NCBI GenBank assembly: GCA_902812365.1
Contig: CADDZC010000022.1
Span: 1 to 49,862, forward strand
Length of the DNA stretch: 49,862 nt
Source of the DNA: Acidobacteriota bacterium
GTDB taxonomy: Bacteria; Acidobacteriota; Terriglobia; UBA7540
Direction: 5' to 3'
The translations under genes and the position numbers were made by a program. Shown here one piece after another: positions 19,135 to 46,136 of the stretch. Each line of letters begins with the position of its first letter. Position 1 is the first letter of the stretch. The notes below the pieces were generated by a model. That model was not told the origin of the DNA and ran no database searches. It worked only from the letters and a program-made list of their open reading frames with translations.

Positions 19135-20061
19135 TTGAAGACCGCCACGTTGATCTATAATCCCGTCGCCGGGCGAGTTCCGGGACGGCGCGAAGGCGAA
19201 ATGCGCCAAGCCCGCGCCGTGCTCGAAGCTTCAGGCTTCCGGGTGAGGCTGGAGCGGACATGGGGGCCGGGCAGCGCCGAACACCTGGCGCGGGAAGCTG
19301 CCGCCGAAGCGGAGGCGGTGATCGTGTGCGGGGGCGACGGGACCCTCAACGAGGCTGTCAATGGCCTGGCGGGCTGCGCGACCCCGCTGATCATATTGCC
19401 GGGCGGCACGGCCAACATTGCGGCGCGTGAGCTCGGGTTGCCGCTCGATCCGGTGCTCGCCGCCCGCGCCGCCGGCGGATGGATCTCGCGCCGCATTTCG
19501 CTGGGACTGGCCAGGTTCACGTCGGGCTCGGCGGCCGAATCCCGGCGATATTTTTTGAGCGTCGCCGGGGTGGGATTCGACGCCTACGTCATCTCCAAAC
19601 TCTCCGTCGCGTTCAAGACCTCCTGGGGAGTGGCCGCTTATGTGGGCGAAGCGTTTCGGCAGTGGGCTCGAGGCCGGTTTCCGGGGCTCGTGTGCCGCGT
19701 GGACGGTCGAGAAGTGGCGGGCACGTTCGGCGCCGTTCAGCGGACGAGCCTGTACGGCGGCTGGCTGCGCCTGGCCCCCGGCGCCAGCCTGTTTCGCGAT
19801 CGACTCACCCTGTGCCTGTTCAAAAGCTCGAGCCGGATTCGCTATTTGACCTATGCGGTCGCCGTGCTGCTGCGCCGGCACACGCGGTTGCCCGACGTGG
19901 CCTTGATCGAGGCGGGCGAAGTCGGCTGCGCGCCCGCGCCGGAGGGGGAAAGGGTCTACGTGGAGACGGATGGCGAGCTGGCCGGCGCGCTGCCGGCCAC
20001 GTTCTCGGTGGCCCCAAACGCGCTGACGCTGCGAGTGCCGCAGAGGGCGGCCGAGGGTTGA
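19135..20061 (+). CDS. Diacylglycerol/lipid kinase family protein (DagK-like)
   Basis: 308 residues. The start is TTG at 19135, giving 'KTATLIYNPVAGR', the standard beginning for this fold; no ATG or GTG fits. The kinase signature GGDGT is at 66-70, followed by LNEAVNGL, then 'ILPGGTANIAARELG' and 'SVAGVGFDAYV'. Such enzymes phosphorylate diacylglycerol, ceramide-like lipids or undecaprenol-like alcohols with ATP; the lipid is unknown. The DUF457 membrane hydrolase gene is downstream on the same strand. Confidence 0.88.
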   Translation: MKTATLIYNPVAGRVPGRREGEMRQARAVLEASGFRVRLERTWGPGSAEHLAREAAAEAEAVIVCGGDGTLNEAVNGLAGCATPLIILPGGTANIAARELGLPLDPVLAARAAGGWISRRISLGLARFTSGSAAESRRYFLSVAGVGFDAYVISKLSVAFKTSWGVAAYVGEAFRQWARGRFPGLVCRVDGREVAGTFGAVQRTSLYGGWLRLAPGASLFRDRLTLCLFKSSSRIRYLTYAVAVLLRRHTRLPDVALIEAGEVGCAPAPEGERVYVETDGELAGALPATFSVAPNALTLRVPQRAAEG

Positions 20062-20142
20062 CCGGCAGCACCGAGCCGCCGCCCGACCCGCGACGGTTGG
20101 GCATTGGCGGCGTTCCGCGCCCGGCACGCAACGGTTGCGCCC

Positions 20143-21156
20143 GTGGATAACCTCACTCACACCCTCACCGGCATGGCCATCAGTCGAGCCGGAATCCATC
20201 GCCAGACGCGCTTCGCCACGGCCGCCTTGATCCTGGCGGCGAACGCGCCGGATGTGGATCTGGTGACGCGCTTCTGGGGAAGCGCCACCTACCTCAAAGA
20301 CCATCGCGGCCTCACCCACTCGATTCTCGGTGTCACCCTTTTGGCGGCCGTGACGGCCGGGCTGGTTTATGGCATCGGGCGCCGGGCGCGGCCGAAGGCC
20401 GGCGCGCCGCCGCTCGATGGGCGCTGGCTCGCCCTCGGCTGCTGGATCGGCACCGCCAGCCACCTGCTGCTCGACTGGACGAATGCTTACGGCGTGCGGC
20501 CGTTCATGCCCTTCAACGATCGCTGGTACGCCGCCGACATCATGCCCATTATCGATCCGGCGCTGCTCCTGCTGCTGCTCGCCGGGCTTCTGCTGCCGGG
20601 GCTGTTTCGAATGGTTTCCGAAGAGGTCGGCGCGCGGAAGCCGGTCTCGCGCCGCGGCGCCTTCTTCGCCCTCGGAGCCATGCTGGCCCTCTGGCTGGTT
20701 CGCGGCTTCGCCCACGCCCGCGTGCTCAGTCTGCTCGAGGCCCACACCTACAGCGACGAAGCGCCGCTTCAAGCGGGCGCGTTTCCCACCCTCAATCCGC
20801 TCGCTTGGACTGGCGTGATCGAAACCGAATCGGCTTTCCACCTTCTTCCGGCCAGCGCCCTTGCGGGCGATGCCGACCTTGAGCACGATGAGATCTTCTA
20901 CAAGCCCGCTCCCTCCCCGGCTCTGACGGCGGCGCTCGGCACCAGCCTGGGCCGGGTTTTTTCCCGCTTCGCCCGCTTTCCGTGGGCCCAGGTGACGCCC
21001 GCCGAGGACGGCTTCGAGGTCACGATTCAAGACCTGCGCTTTGCTTCGCCTCACGCGGCGGGGCGCGCCTTCTATATCGATATCCGGCTCGATCGCAACC
21101 TGTGTGCCGTCTCCGAGGAATTTCACTTCGCCGGCCCGCCCGCCGCCGGCCGCTGA
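20143..21156 (+). CDS. Membrane-bound metal-dependent hydrolase, DUF457/YdjM family
   Basis: 337 residues from GTG 20143, which gives the conserved start DNLTHTLTGMAISRAG; a TTG at 20104 would add 13 unlikely residues. The N-terminal metal motif includes H5 (LTHTL), 'NAPDVDLV' and 'DHRGLTHSILGV'. 'ASHLLLDWTNAYG' is the second His/Asp set. Several transmembrane segments run through the middle (about 100-220), followed by a soluble C-terminal domain of about 115 residues. Family members are uncharacterised. It overlaps the convergent VTT gene by 34 bp. Confidence 0.86.
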   Translation: MDNLTHTLTGMAISRAGIHRQTRFATAALILAANAPDVDLVTRFWGSATYLKDHRGLTHSILGVTLLAAVTAGLVYGIGRRARPKAGAPPLDGRWLALGCWIGTASHLLLDWTNAYGVRPFMPFNDRWYAADIMPIIDPALLLLLLAGLLLPGLFRMVSEEVGARKPVSRRGAFFALGAMLALWLVRGFAHARVLSLLEAHTYSDEAPLQAGAFPTLNPLAWTGVIETESAFHLLPASALAGDADLEHDEIFYKPAPSPALTAALGTSLGRVFSRFARFPWAQVTPAEDGFEVTIQDLRFASPHAAGRAFYIDIRLDRNLCAVSEEFHFAGPPAAGR

Positions 21157-21966: not shown

Positions 21967-24489
21967 ATGGCGGATCAAGAACTGATTCCGGCGGCGAGGC
22001 AGATTCCCGTCAACATCGAAGACGAGATGCGCAGCTCGTATCTCGACTACGCGATGAGCGTGATCATCGGGCGGGCTCTGCCCGACGTCCGCGACGGGCT
22101 GAAGCCTGTCCACCGCCGCATCCTCTACGCGATGTACAAAGAGGGCATCACGTCGGACAAGCGCTACGTGAAATGCGCCGGCGTGGTGGGCGAGGTGATC
22201 AAGAAATACCACCCGCACGGCGACTCCGCCGTCTACGACACCTTGGTGCGCATGGCCCAGGATTTTAATATGCGTTATCCGTTGATCGACGGCCAAGGCA
22301 ACTTCGGCTCCGTCGACGGCGACCCGCCGGCCGCCTATCGGTACACGGAGTGCCGCCTGGCGCCGATCGCCGAAGAGCTGCTTGCCGACATTGAAAAGGA
22401 GACGGTGGATTTTGTCCCCAACTTCGACGAGTCCACGTCGGAGCCCACCGTGCTCCCGGCGCGCGTCCCGAATCTGCTCGTCAACGGCTCGGACGGGATT
22501 GCCGTCGGCATGGCCACCAAGATCCCCCCTCACAATTTGACGGAGATCATCGACGCCACGATTTTGCTGATCAACAAGCCCAACGCCACCCTGGATGAAG
22601 TGCTGGCGGTCGTGCCCGGTCCGGACTTTCCCACCGGGGCCTACCTGTACGGCCGCAGCGGCATCAAGGCCGCCTACGAGAGCGGACGGGGCCAGTTCAC
22701 CCTGCGCGCCAAGGCGGCCATCGAACGCCCCAACAAGGAGAAACAACAGATTGTGATCACCGAGATTCCGTATCAGGTCAATAAGGCCGCGGTGATCAAG
22801 CGCATTGCGGAGCTCGTGCAAAACAAGAAGATCGAAGGCATCGCCGACGTGCGCGACGAGTCGGACCGCGAGGGGATGCGAGTGGTGATCGAGCTCAAGC
22901 GGGGCGAACAGCCGGAGGTGGTTCTGAACAACCTGTACAAGCACACCCAGTTACAGGAAAACTTCGGCATGATCATGTTGGCCATCGTCAACGGACAGCC
23001 GCGAACGCTGCCGCTGATGGAGGCCATCCAGCTCTTCATTGACCATCGCGTCAGCGTGGTGCGGCGCCGCACGGTGCACGATCTCCGCAAGGCCGAGGAA
23101 CGCGCCCACCTTTTGGAAGGCTTTCTGAAGGCGCTCGACCACATTGATGCCATCATCCGGCTGATCCGCGCCTCCGCTGCCCCCAAGGAAGCCCGCGACG
23201 ACCTGATGACCCGCTTCGCCTTCACTGAACGCCAGGCCCAAGCCATCCTCGAGCTGCAGTTGCAACGCCTCACCGCGCTCGAACGGGGAAAGATTCAGGA
23301 AGAATACGACGCTCTGCAGAAAAAGATCGCCGAATATAAGGAAATGCTGGCTAGCGAGAAAGTTCTGAAGCGGGTCATCGTCGAGGAGTTGAAAGCCGTG
23401 CAGAAGCAGTACGGCGACGCGCGCCGGACTGCGATCATCGAGGAACAGGCAGAAATCAAGCTGGAAGACCTGATTGCCGACGAGGACGTGGTCATCACCC
23501 TGTCCCACTCCGGATATCTCAAGCGCACGCCGCTGTCCACCTACCGCCAGCAGGGACGGGGCGGGAAGGGCCGCATGGGGATGAAGACCCGGGACGAGGA
23601 CTTCGTGGAACACCTCTTCATCGCTTCGACGCACAGTTACATTCTGGTGTTCACGAACACGGGCCGGCTTTACTGGCTGAAGGTATACGAAATTCCCGAC
23701 GTGGGCGCAGCGGGCAAAGGGAAACATATCTTGAACCTTGTCAACCTGGGCCCGGGCGAGAAGGTGGCAGACGTGGTCGCGGTGAAGGACTTGCCCGATC
23801 AACCCCGCGACGTGGCGGTGGACGGCGAAACCTACGCGGCCGAGGGCTACGTCACCATGGTGACGCGCCGCGGCGTCATCAAGAAGACGCGCCTGGCGGA
23901 GTTTTCCAATCCGCGCACGGCGGGCATCGTGGCCATGAAAATCGAAGACGGCGACGAACTGATCGCCGCCCAGCGCACCTCGGGCCGCGATACGATCTTT
24001 CTGGCCTCGCACGAGGGCATGGCGATTCGCTTCCCGGAGTCCGACGTCCGCGACATGGGCCGAGCCGCCTTCGGGGTCAACGGCATGAATCTTGATCCCG
24101 ATGATTTCCTGGTCGGAATGGAAATTGTGGGCGAGAAGGAGTTGATCCTCTCGGTGACCGAAAAAGGCTTCGGCAAACGGACGCCGATCACGGAGTACCG
24201 TCTGCAGTCGCGCGCCGGCAAAGGTGTGATCAACGTCAAGACCACTGAGCGCAACGGAAAGGTCGTGAGCGTGCTCAGCGTCAGCGAGGACTCTGAAGTG
24301 ATGATCATCACCCAGCAAGGGAAGATCACGCGCTTGGACGCCAGCACGATTCGCGAGTCCGGCCGCTCGGCGCAGGGCGTCAAGCTGATCAGCCTGGAAG
24401 AAGGCGATCAGGTGGCCGCGGCGTGCCTGGTGACCAACGAAGCGAACGATAACGGCGAGGGCCCGCCCCCCGGCACGCTCCTGCAGTGA
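21967..24489 (+). CDS. gyrA: DNA gyrase subunit A
   Basis: 840 residues, normal length. GyrA forms the DNA-cleaving half of gyrase, which introduces negative supercoils using ATP hydrolysed by GyrB. The breakage-reunion domain starts '[22 protein letters not shown]'. The active-site tyrosine is Y126 in AAYRYTECR. The quinolone-resistance region [10 protein letters not shown] has Ser87 and Asp91, the drug-sensitive residues. The C-terminal pinwheel carries the GyrA box as QGRGGKG (about 530), distinguishing it from ParC. gyrB is not adjacent; the promoter is at 21869-21898. Confidence 0.98.
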
Positions 24490-24535
24490 CCCGGCCGATA
24501 GCGATGAGCGGTTCGAGCGGTCTTGTCCTCGGCCG

Positions 24536-25609
24536 TCACCCTTGCGGCCGGCGATCGATCGATTGAATATAGATGCCGAGAGGCCGGTCCCCCGCCATAA
24601 CGAACACCACCGCCTTGAGCCGCCGGGCCGGCGTGTCAAATGCTGCCAGCGGCACCTGGAACGCCACCACGGCCGCGCCGCCCGGCGAATCGGGGAGCGA
24701 AGCGTAGAGGGCCAGACTGCCGTCGCTGGCGCGGTAGGCCTGCCACCTCGCACCGACAATCTTGCCTCCACCGTGGAAATTAACGGCGATCCGCAGGCGG
24801 GCGCCGACCCCATTGCGGAATCGGACCGGGATGCGCAGCGAAAGATTCTCCCCGCGGGGATCGACGGCGGCCTTGACGGCTTCGATAAGGGCGAGTGGCG
24901 GTGCGTTGCCGCCCGGCGACGCCGCGGCGTTCGGCCATTGAGCACGGAAGATGGCCAGAGCTACCCTGGCCGTGTCGGCGTTCTGAGCCTCGCGGTCTTC
25001 CCAGCGCGGGTGCGTCAGTAGGAACCGCCCGAGCCGCGGCTGGTCGGGGACGTAGAAGCGGATGCAGCGGTCGAACGCGATCACATAATCGGGATGAAAG
25101 CCGGCCGCAGCCATTAACAGCATTCCCACCCGATCCGCTTGGTATTCACGCCGGCGTGCATGGGCGAGACGGCCCCTTTCGTCGCCGGCCGTATCCAGGT
25201 GCAGGATCGACCGCGCCGGAGGGTCGGGGTTGGCGCCACGGCCCCGATAAAGCTCTTCCAGCTTCTTCTCGAATCCCGGCCGGTAGGCTTCATCCTGGGG
25301 CAGAATGATGACGTGCGCGATTTCGTGGCTTAGCACGGCGGCCCACAGCCCGCGATCCTGGCCGAGAACGTCGGCCAGGCCGCCCGTGACGAAGATCTCG
25401 CCATCACCGCTCGAGGCCGCGTTGAGGTGCCGATCCCCTGAAATCGTGACCCGCCAGCGATACGGTGGCAGGGCCTGACCGGGCGGACTCGAGATCAAGG
25501 TCCGTAGAACTTCGCTGGCGACCGTAGGAAGAGGCAGCCTCGGCGGCGAAGCGCCGGCGGCGCTGATCGCCGCCGCTAAGGTCCAGATTGCTGGTGGTAG
25601 GAAGACCAT
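24536..25609 (-). CDS. Secreted M48-like zinc metalloprotease
   Basis: 357 residues from ATG 25609, which starts a signal peptide (VFLPPAIWTLAAAISAAGA); an ORF extension to 25666 is less likely. The zinc motif HEIAH is at 95-99 and the third ligand is probably E155 in REYQAD, as in M48 peptidases. Between them lies a loop with 'YRGRGANPDPP'. Beyond the protease core (to about 210) is a region of about 145 residues that looks beta-rich ('IPVRFRNGVGARLRIAVNF'), perhaps a sensing or binding domain. No transmembrane helix is seen after the signal peptide, so it is probably periplasmic. It is convergent with gyrA and divergent from larE. Confidence 0.82.
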   Translation of the reverse strand: MVFLPPAIWTLAAAISAAGASPPRLPLPTVASEVLRTLISSPPGQALPPYRWRVTISGDRHLNAASSGDGEIFVTGGLADVLGQDRGLWAAVLSHEIAHVIILPQDEAYRPGFEKKLEELYRGRGANPDPPARSILHLDTAGDERGRLAHARRREYQADRVGMLLMAAAGFHPDYVIAFDRCIRFYVPDQPRLGRFLLTHPRWEDREAQNADTARVALAIFRAQWPNAAASPGGNAPPLALIEAVKAAVDPRGENLSLRIPVRFRNGVGARLRIAVNFHGGGKIVGARWQAYRASDGSLALYASLPDSPGGAAVVAFQVPLAAFDTPARRLKAVVFVMAGDRPLGIYIQSIDRRPQG

Positions 25610-41889: not shown

Positions 41890-44800
41890 TCAAAACGTAA
41901 ATCTCAGCGCAAATTGAATCAAGCGCGGATTATTGAGGGTTGAATTGACCACGCCAAAGTTACTCGAACCTACGGTCCGGTTGGGAGGACCGAACTGCGG
42001 TTTATTAAACAGGTTGAAAAACTCCGCTCGAAACTGCATGTTCAGCCTGTCCTCCGGGCCAAAGCGGGTGTTTTTGAAAAGAGCGAAATCCCAATTTTGG
42101 ATGCCCTCCGCCCGAAGGACCGGATCCACCCGACTCTCGTTGCCGAACGTGTAGTTGGGCGGCAGGCTGAAGGCTGCCGTGTTGAACCACTTGTTGAGTC
42201 GGCTTTCCGGAGAACCACTCAGCGCCCCGGTGCCGGTCTTGTTGGGACGCGCCCCGTCGCCCGGACCGGTGCTGACGCCGGTCGTGTTGAAATTCAGCGG
42301 GAAACCGCGCTGATACGTGGTGACGCCTTCGGCTCCCCAGCCCGAGACGAGCTTAGCTCCGATCCCGCTGGCGTTCGCCAAATATTTCTTGCCCTGCCCA
42401 AATGGCAGATCGAGCACGTAGCTGGCCACCAGCCGCTGCGGGACGTCAAAGCTCGACAGCGACCGCTCATTGGCGCGGTTGTTCCAGTCCTGGATGCCGC
42501 CTTGGCCACCCGCTTCCAGCCAACCCGTCAACGAGTCGACATCCCCGGTGGTGATCATCTTGGAAACTGTGTAGGCCACCAGCAGCGTGCCATTTCCTCG
42601 CATCCGTTTCTCCAACTTGGCCTGAAACGAGTGGTAGATGCTGTCGGACCACCCCGAGGCGCCGATCGCGTAACCCGTGTACTGCGGATAGGGTCGCAGG
42701 AGCTGGCCCAACGTCGTATTGGCGGCTGACAAGCCGGTGCGGTTCTTGATGAGCCCGAAGAACGGGTTGGGGACCACGTCGTTGAGGTGCGAGCTGAGCG
42801 ACAAATATTTGTCAGGCAAGGGGTTGAGTTGCTGGGCGAAATCCGGCAAATGGGTACCTTTTGCCGCCGCATATGCCAGGTCAATCAACGTGCCGTCCGG
42901 CAACTCCCGCTGCACATCCAGGTTCCACTGCTGGTAATAGGCATAAGGGTTCGTGGGCAGAAGCGCAAACGGGCCCTGCCCGTACTCGAACGCTCGGTAG
43001 CCCGCCAAATTGCGGCCGAACGGCTTCACAATTCCGTTGGGGAACGGGTTGCTCACGTTGAAGGTGGGGCCGCCCGGGCACGCTGGCTGACCTACGGCCA
43101 AGTTGGGGTTTTGGCACGGCGAATGGCCGCCGTCCACGCTGGTGAGCCACGGGGTGCTGGAGCCATTGACCCCGTCGGTATTCGGGGCCTCGTCGAACTC
43201 GACGGCATTGGAAATCCAAAACAAGCCGTATCCGCCCCGTACGACGGTCCGGTCATTCCATTGATAGGCAAAGCCGAGGTGCGGTGAGAACTGGAGCCAA
43301 GGCTTGTTTTGCGCGTACCGTTCCGGCCTGTCGCTGGTCGCCACCAACCCCAGGTCTCCCTTCAAGGGAGGCAGACAGAGCTGGCTCGATCCAAACGCCG
43401 CGGCCGTGGCCGCCGGCAAGGTGACGCACGGCGGTTGGGGCAGGTTCGTCGGGGCGTTGGGAGCCAGGTAGGAAATCCGGTTGAAGCGCTCGGAGTAGGG
43501 TCCGTTCTGCTCCCAGCGGATGCCCAGGTTGAGGGTCAGTTTGCCGGTTACCTTGAACTGATCCTGGGCGTAGAGGGCCGGATAGATCTGCTGGGAGGCC
43601 ACCGGATTCACATATTGCTGGCCGCTGCCGGTCCCGTAACCCAACAGGAAGGAAGCAAAGGCGGAACCGGTCACTTGGCCATTGGGAAGGCGGGCGTTGG
43701 TAGGAGTCACCTGGGTAAAGCCGCTGTCGAATCTAAAGTTGCCGACAGGAGTGTTGGTCTGCAAGTAATTGTGATGGTCCACGCGGTACTCGCCGCCGAA
43801 CTGCAGCGTATGCCGGCCGGAGATCTTCGTCACGCTGCCGGCCAGGCGCGGCGTGTCGTCCCGGGCGATGATGACGCTGCCGGCGCCGTTACTGTTGAAG
43901 ACATTGCCCAAAAAGGAGTCCGGGCCACCCGTGAAGTTGGGAATGGGCAGGTCGCGCAGGACCACCTGGTTATTGAGAGGAGCCCAGGCGGGTCCCAACT
44001 GCGACAGGTCCAGCCCCACATCGGAAGGAATGCGGTTGTAGGCCAGCCGGCCGTAGCTGATGCGAAGGTCCAGAATTGTCGTGGGCGAAAAATTGTACAC
44101 GTCATCCACCACGGCGTTGTGCGTTGTGAACTTTTCGGTACAGCGGTCCTGGCAGACGCCGGTTTTGAAGGGGTCGATCGGGAAGTTGAGGTTTGTCCAG
44201 CGCGTATAGCGCACAAAGATGTGCTGCTTGTCGCTCACGTTTTGATCCACCCGGGCCACTTCCTCGCCGTTGTTGCCGCCTCCGCTCGAGCTGGCCACGT
44301 AGTTGTCCACATTGGTAAAAAGATTGGCCGGGGTGGCGTTGGGAGCCGGGAACTCCTTCAGGAAGAACTGCACGGCGGGATTGCCGGCGATGATGCTGGG
44401 GCAGATGACGTTCAAGGTCCCGTTGCAACTGAGCTGCTGTCGGCTATAGGTGCCGTTGGGGTTGAGGGTAGTGGTCGTCGGATCATAGATGGGGATCAGG
44501 TTGCCGCTGGCGTCCCGATAGTTGGTGAAATCGCCATTCTTCTCGGCGAGGGTGGGCACGCTCTCCACAAACGTCTGGCCGATCCGCTCGCGAAAACCTT
44601 CGTAGCTGAAAAAGAAAAACGTCTTGTCACGCCCATCGTATAGATGAGGGATATAGACGGGACCGCCGGCGTTGGCGCCAAACTGGTTCTGGATGAAGGG
44701 GCCGCGGTTGGGAATAAAGAAATCGCGGGCGTTGAGCACCGTGTTGCGCAGATACTCGTAAGCCGTGCCGTGGAGCTGGTTGGTGCCGGATTTGGTGGTG

Positions 44801-45537
44801 AAATTGATCACCCCGCCGGCAAAACGTCCCCACTCGGCGTCCAGGTTGTTCGTCTGGACCTTGAATTCCTGGAGCGAATCCTGGGTGGGGATCAAGCTGA
44901 GCTCGTTAATGTAGCTATTGTTCAACGGCACCCCGTCCAAGTACTCCGCGCCTTGGTTGGTAATGGCTCCGCCAATCTGGTAGTTGCTGTAATCGAACGG
45001 GTTCTTGCCCACCGGATTGCCCTGCGACTGCCCTTGGGGCACCACGCTCGGCGCCAGCGCCACCAAGTTCATCGGGTTCCGCCCGTTCAGCGGTAATTCA
45101 TTAACTTGCCGCGTCTCAATCACCTGTCCCAAAGACGACGTTTCCGGCTGCAAGAGGGGCGTCTGCGCGGTCACTTCCACCGTCTGGCTCACCTGCCCGA
45201 GCTCCAGGACGATATCAATGTGCGCCGTCTGCTGGACTTCCACCACAATGGGTTGTCGCGTAAAGCGCTTAAATCCTTCCTTCTCCGCATCGATGCGATA
45301 CTGGCCCGGAATGAGATTCACAAAGGAATAGAAGCCGTCCGGACCCGTCGGTTGAGTCCGTTTCTCCGAGGTGCCCAGATTCGTCAGCGTGACCAGAGTC
45401 CCCGGAATTACGGCTCCCGTCGTATCCCTAACCGTCCCCGTAATTGACCCAAAGGTTGTCTGCCCACTCGCGGGCCGCAGACCCAGCGAAACTAAGACAA
45501 GCGCTCAAGCCAACCACTTGCCTCTGCCCCCAAACAT
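41890..45537 (-). CDS. TonB-dependent receptor, Oar-like, with in-frame TGA in the signal peptide
   Basis: ATG 45537 follows a perfect AAGGAGG with five-base spacing and starts MFGGRGKWLA; codon 11 is TGA (45505-45507). The same frame continues as ALVLVSLGLRPASGQTTFGS and stays open for about 1200 residues to 41890. If the stop were a sense codon the protein would be 1215 residues, the normal size. Domains: carboxypeptidase-regulatory-like fold (about 28-105, 'GSITGTVRDTTG'), plug ('ELPLNGRNPMNLVALAPSVV', 'VINFTTKSGTNQLHGTAYEY') and a long barrel ending in LRFTF, the aromatic C-terminal signal. The only good internal start is GTG 45321, which would lack the signal peptide. Other genes here end in TGA, so recoding is not general. 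Best read as a recent nonsense allele, an error or readthrough. Confidence 0.88.
45505..45507 (-). other. In-frame TGA, codon 11 of the TonB receptor
   Basis: The minus strand reads GCT TGA GCG here. A TGG to TGA change would restore LAWALV, a normal signal-peptide core. Confidence 0.85.
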
Positions 45538-45542
45538 TTATC

Positions 45543-45549
45543 CCTCCTT
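45543..45549 (-). promoter_or_regulatory. Perfect Shine-Dalgarno of the second TonB receptor
   Basis: AAGGAGG on the minus strand, five bases before the ATG at 45537. It fixes the natural start upstream of the TGA, so the stop is not an annotation artefact. Confidence 0.75.
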
Positions 45550-45755
45550 ATGCCTTATGCGGCATGACTGCTCAGGGATCGGAATGCGCCCCTTAAAGCA
45601 GGTCCGATGCCATTGTTCGCATGGAGTTAAGTAGTTTAGAATCAATCCACTAGCCAGAGCCAACCGACTCGAAAATCCGAATTGTTGGAGGTACTACGGA
45701 AATCAGAATATTCCGGCGTCCCGCCGCCAACGGCTTCGCGATCCCGCTTCTCCGG

Positions 45756-46136
45756 TTATTTCTTCAGTTCAATCACCAACACTCGACTAACCGTCGTTCT
45801 CGTGTTTTCGGTGCTGTGGGTGACAGCGTCCAACCAGACGGCCTGACCCGCCTTCATCACGCGCTCTTCGGACTGGCCATCCGGCGTGGTGAACTTTGCC
45901 TTGGCCGTCGTCAGCGCGTAAACGACGCTGGCCGGATGGGAGTGCATCGGGATCTTGTCACCGGGCCGGGTTACCACCCTGATGACCCGCACGCGTTCAT
46001 TGTTGAGCAGCACCGTGCAGTTCTTCGGGGCGACGGCCACCATGTCTTGATCTTGCGCAAGGGCAAGCGGTGCCGCCCCCAAGCCCAGAAACACGATCAC
46101 GGACACGCTCGCATTCAGCAGACGGAGCAACTTCAT
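45756..46136 (-). CDS. Secreted cupin-domain protein
   Basis: 126 residues from ATG 46136, which has an AGGAGG site and a signal peptide (KLLRLLNASVSVIVFLGLGAAPLALA). The longer frame to 46415 has no signal. The mature cupin contains 'VRVIRVVTRPGDKIPMHSHPASVVYAL', with the His pair H-S-H of cupin motif 1, and 'GQAVWLDAVTHSTEN' as motif 2. It may bind a metal and a small ligand in the periplasm. It faces nuoB across 266 bp. Confidence 0.82.
   Translation of the reverse strand: MKLLRLLNASVSVIVFLGLGAAPLALAQDQDMVAVAPKNCTVLLNNERVRVIRVVTRPGDKIPMHSHPASVVYALTTAKAKFTTPDGQSEERVMKAGQAVWLDAVTHSTENTRTTVSRVLVIELKK

Follow-up and report, generated by a model that had tools for sequence, protein, structure and literature searches.

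Reversible on/off switching is known for some TonB-dependent receptors, hmbR being toggled via a poly-G tract, whereas the gonococcal hmbR has a premature stop codon instead (PMC3068627). The Oar-like TonB-dependent receptors of Acidobacteriota combine the domains PF13620 and PF25183, in this order, over a length of about 1200 residues, carry a signal peptide followed by a mature start QTTFG..., and are encoded by many paralogues per genome. The gene described here shares these properties, but this copy has a stop codon within its signal peptide. It is encoded in the window (the whole stretch of 49,862 nucleotides that was analysed), which is the entire contig C22 of a 3.5-Mb draft genome of 123 contigs. 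The elements of the locus are:

45543 to 45549, minus strand: Shine-Dalgarno sequence AAGGAGG, read directly in the sequence, at normal spacing to the ATG at 45537
45508 to 45537, minus strand: ATG (45537-45535) and ten codons, MFGGRGKWLA, the signal-peptide n-region as aligned to the n-regions of homologues
45505 to 45507, minus strand: in-frame TGA at codon 11, read directly in the sequence
45463 to 45504, minus strand: remainder of the signal peptide, hydrophobic ALVLVSLGL and then RPASG ahead of QTTFG, at the position of the signal-peptide core of homologues
41890 to 45504, minus strand: open frame of 1204 codons behind the stop, with CarboxypepD_reg, plug and OMP_b-brl_4 barrel, by translation and Pfam
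41890 to 45321, minus strand: probable gene-caller product of 1143 residues starting at GTG 45321, without signal peptide and with much of the first domain missing

Residues 20-101 of the frame behind the stop matched PF13620 (CarboxypepD_reg) with 68.9 bits, and the frame matched PF25183 (OMP_b-brl_4) from end to end of the model with 682.8 bits. With 1204 codons, a full-length PF25183 match and a PF13620 match, this frame is not a product of chance, and the interrupted gene is an Oar-like TonB-dependent receptor, a CarboxypepD_reg domain followed by an OMP_b-brl_4 barrel. These matches and the homologues bear out the earlier note, made from the sequence alone, which had read the gene as a TonB-dependent receptor with an interrupted signal peptide. 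Its Shine-Dalgarno sequence, ATG 45537, MFGGRGKWLA and TGA at 45505-45507 were likewise found on the minus strand, as were the roughly 1200 open codons leading to a normal C-terminus. The frame ends in a normal terminator of its own, the TGA at 41892-41890, and a read-through product would have the expected length of 1215. By descent the gene belongs to the Oar-like family, but as sequenced it is not functional. In this genome, CarboxypepD_reg-like matches number 48, while paralogues of the gene run to dozens and Oar-like receptor genes to about 45. The named relatives all belong to the Acidobacteriota, with Bryobacterales strongly represented. A second Oar-like receptor with an intact N-terminus occupies positions 1-2785 of the window and runs off the contig end. 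The window also holds two long open frames on the minus strand that have no Pfam match, at 19231-21126 and at 22951-24945; the latter is antisense to gyrA (21967-24489, plus strand) and most probably represents a shadow frame left open by GC-rich coding DNA.

The position of the native start was given by the relatives. A start codon and a stop-free hydrophobic signal peptide directly preceding the mature start, QTTFG or similar, were present in 31 paralogues of this genome and in about 50 homologues from elsewhere, those with complete 5′ ends. Since these signal peptides are uninterrupted, the native start must be placed upstream of the TGA, which excludes GTG 45321; the homologue alignment that the earlier note proposed, which might have placed the relatives' starts at 45321, shows them to begin upstream with a signal peptide. 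A Shine-Dalgarno sequence and ATG at such spacing are expected by chance about 0.5 times per whole window; the pair at 45549-45535 is in frame and falls at the exact start site of the homologues. The residues right after the TGA at 45507-45505, ALVLVSLGLRPASGQTTFG..., and the segment between the TGA and the mature start, ALVLVSLGLRPASG-QTTFG, correspond to the hydrophobic core of the homologues' signal peptides. The signal peptide is therefore encoded, but it is cut by the TGA. GTG 45321 is the first ATG, GTG or TTG after the stop, and it was rejected as a native start, having no upstream Shine-Dalgarno sequence and lying inside the conserved CarboxypepD_reg domain. The only other in-frame starts past the TGA are CTG and ATT codons, none of which retains the signal peptide. 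In the nearest homologue (L039/L068, 73-77% identity) the contig ends before the N-terminus is reached, and a search for the missing part elsewhere in that homologue's genome gave a best match of only 45% and did not find it.

Translation would begin at ATG 45537 and end after ten codons. Export is impossible without a signal peptide, so the receptor would not be exported and the gene would be off, trace read-through of the UGA aside.

To date the lesion, we compared the frame behind the stop with its relatives. The dN/dS ratio against the nearest homologue, L068, was about 0.085 over 905 codons, a value that is approximate since dS is near saturation. With L069 as outgroup, the window gene had 45 unique amino-acid changes and L068 had 43, and with four other outgroups the counts for the window gene were similar or lower, so that neither relaxation nor acceleration of this gene was visible in the relative-rate counts. 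The frame was under purifying selection until recently, and its 3612 nucleotides hold no further stop or frameshift. About 3% of random substitutions would create a stop in it, and the lack of further lesions limits the time without constraint to at most about 0.027 neutral substitutions per site; a tighter bound of 0.006 per site holds on our own assumption that indels arise at 10% of the substitution rate. One lesion that disables a gene whose frame has otherwise been kept by purifying selection is the picture of a recent pseudogene or nonsense allele. Together, purifying selection, the lack of acceleration and the lack of a second lesion point to one of three origins: a nonsense mutation of very recent date, an allele of the strain, or an error in the consensus.

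Probably, one of the roughly 45 Oar-like receptor genes has recently acquired a nonsense mutation, which is either fixed in the sampled population or still segregating there. An error of sequencing, assembly or consensus in this draft genome, or a consensus base drawn from mixed strains, would leave the gene intact in most cells, and we consider it rather unlikely. The genome is a draft of 123 contigs and the receptor frame has no signs of decay, which is exactly the picture that single-base errors produce; however, most of the 30 other frames scanned in the window gave intact-looking family matches, so that errors are not common there. The stop, the intact frame behind it, the purifying selection until recently and the uninterrupted signal peptides of the relatives are all shown; we infer that the cells really carry this base and that the gene stays silent in them.

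Lone stops are not exceptional in this receptor family. In the loci examined, about 99 receptors were scanned (101 motif matches, two of them plainly non-receptors; 1 of 54 in an earlier scan with stricter criteria), and the window gene alone had no start codon in the stretch from the last stop to the domain; no other receptor had a stop in its signal peptide. Elsewhere in receptor genes, single stops were found in a few per cent (among the roughly 150 matches listed), including those of relatives at G046:C369, G031:C606 and G014:C7. A second receptor of the same genome is such a case:

C14:9277-11589, minus strand: Oar-like receptor L011, interrupted once, by an in-frame TAG behind the first domain (LLQT*NASVGQV), and otherwise open to a normal C-terminus

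Given this lone TAG, single stops can be regarded as background, and a rate of a few per cent with about 45 receptors per genome leads one to expect roughly one such copy in each genome. The same genome also has a decayed receptor remnant, in pieces, at C7:23603-27048, with a TAG and two TAA codons (the multiply stopped part is cited as C7:23603-25631).

As the genome uses selenocysteine, recoding of the TGA was tested. Three elements of the machinery were found:

C25:46921-47011: tRNA-Sec, anticodon TCA
C8:67665-68738: SelB
C1:101463-102401: SelD, interrupted by an in-frame TGA behind which lies a strong hairpin (loop GGATT)

SelD is itself a selenoprotein in this genome, its in-frame TGA being accompanied by a SECIS-like hairpin. 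The organism's use of selenocysteine and a hairpin downstream of the receptor TGA (z -2.4) favor decoding of the UGA at codon 11 as selenocysteine; the hairpin is somewhat stable, and the 45 nt past this TGA fall within the top 18% of the window's TGAs. The receptor site passes loose bSECIS criteria, yet 583 of the 1325 window TGA triplets (44%) do so too in our test, a rough implementation of the published limits, and the hairpin does not rise above this background. No structured RNA was matched at the site in an Rfam comparison. Cysteine homologues exist for nearly all selenoproteins (PMC13188914), and the aligned homologues and paralogues have neither a conserved Cys nor a TGA at this position; the residue would, moreover, sit in a signal peptide that is later cut off. 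The receptor shares with SelD an in-frame TGA in an otherwise open frame and a hairpin downstream, but the TGA of SelD is at the known selenocysteine site (AAG-U-AAK), whereas the receptor site has no Cys or Sec counterpart and no distinctive SECIS. Selenocysteine insertion here is extremely improbable.

Leaky or regulated read-through of the UGA, for instance by tRNA-Trp, might sustain a low level of receptor and would agree with a frame conserved until recently. The gene itself, however, terminates at a TGA, the sole tRNA-Trp seen carries the usual anticodon, CCA, and no relative has kept a stop at codon 11, all of which make this very unlikely. The same terminator and anticodon led us to reject reassignment of UGA in the whole code. 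That the UGA is decoded, by either route, and so gates receptor export, e.g. according to selenium supply, is equally hard to credit. The earlier note had left the change as recent, an error or decoded, and this is supported; decoding, once tested, proved unlikely.

The same note had also proposed phase-variable repair, with single-base changes switching the receptor off, and the known switching of hmbR speaks in its favor. Neither direct nor inverted repeats were found at 45150-46000, and inversion of DNA or a repeat-based switch was accordingly rejected. Point stops revert too rarely to act as a switch, the G5 run at codons 3-4 could not restore the frame, and there is no tract whose slippage would. 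With a signal-peptide stop in only one of about 99 receptors as well, the proposal did not hold up, and reversible on/off switching at the TGA is highly improbable. Even jointly, recoding, read-through and switching account for little of the probability. The whole case fits an ordinary event, a recent loss-of-function change or a sequence error, rather than a new switch.

An annotation of this gene should record the interruption instead of listing a receptor of 1143 residues without a signal peptide. The case illustrates turnover within a large receptor family, and it would be of wider importance only if the UGA at codon 11 were decoded. Gonococcal hmbR (PMC3068627) is likewise a gene for a TonB-dependent receptor that an in-frame stop has inactivated; it differs in belonging to another receptor family and in that its state was established from isolates, the present one coming from the consensus of one draft genome. 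Our case resembles the premature stop of gonococcal hmbR rather than poly-G switching.
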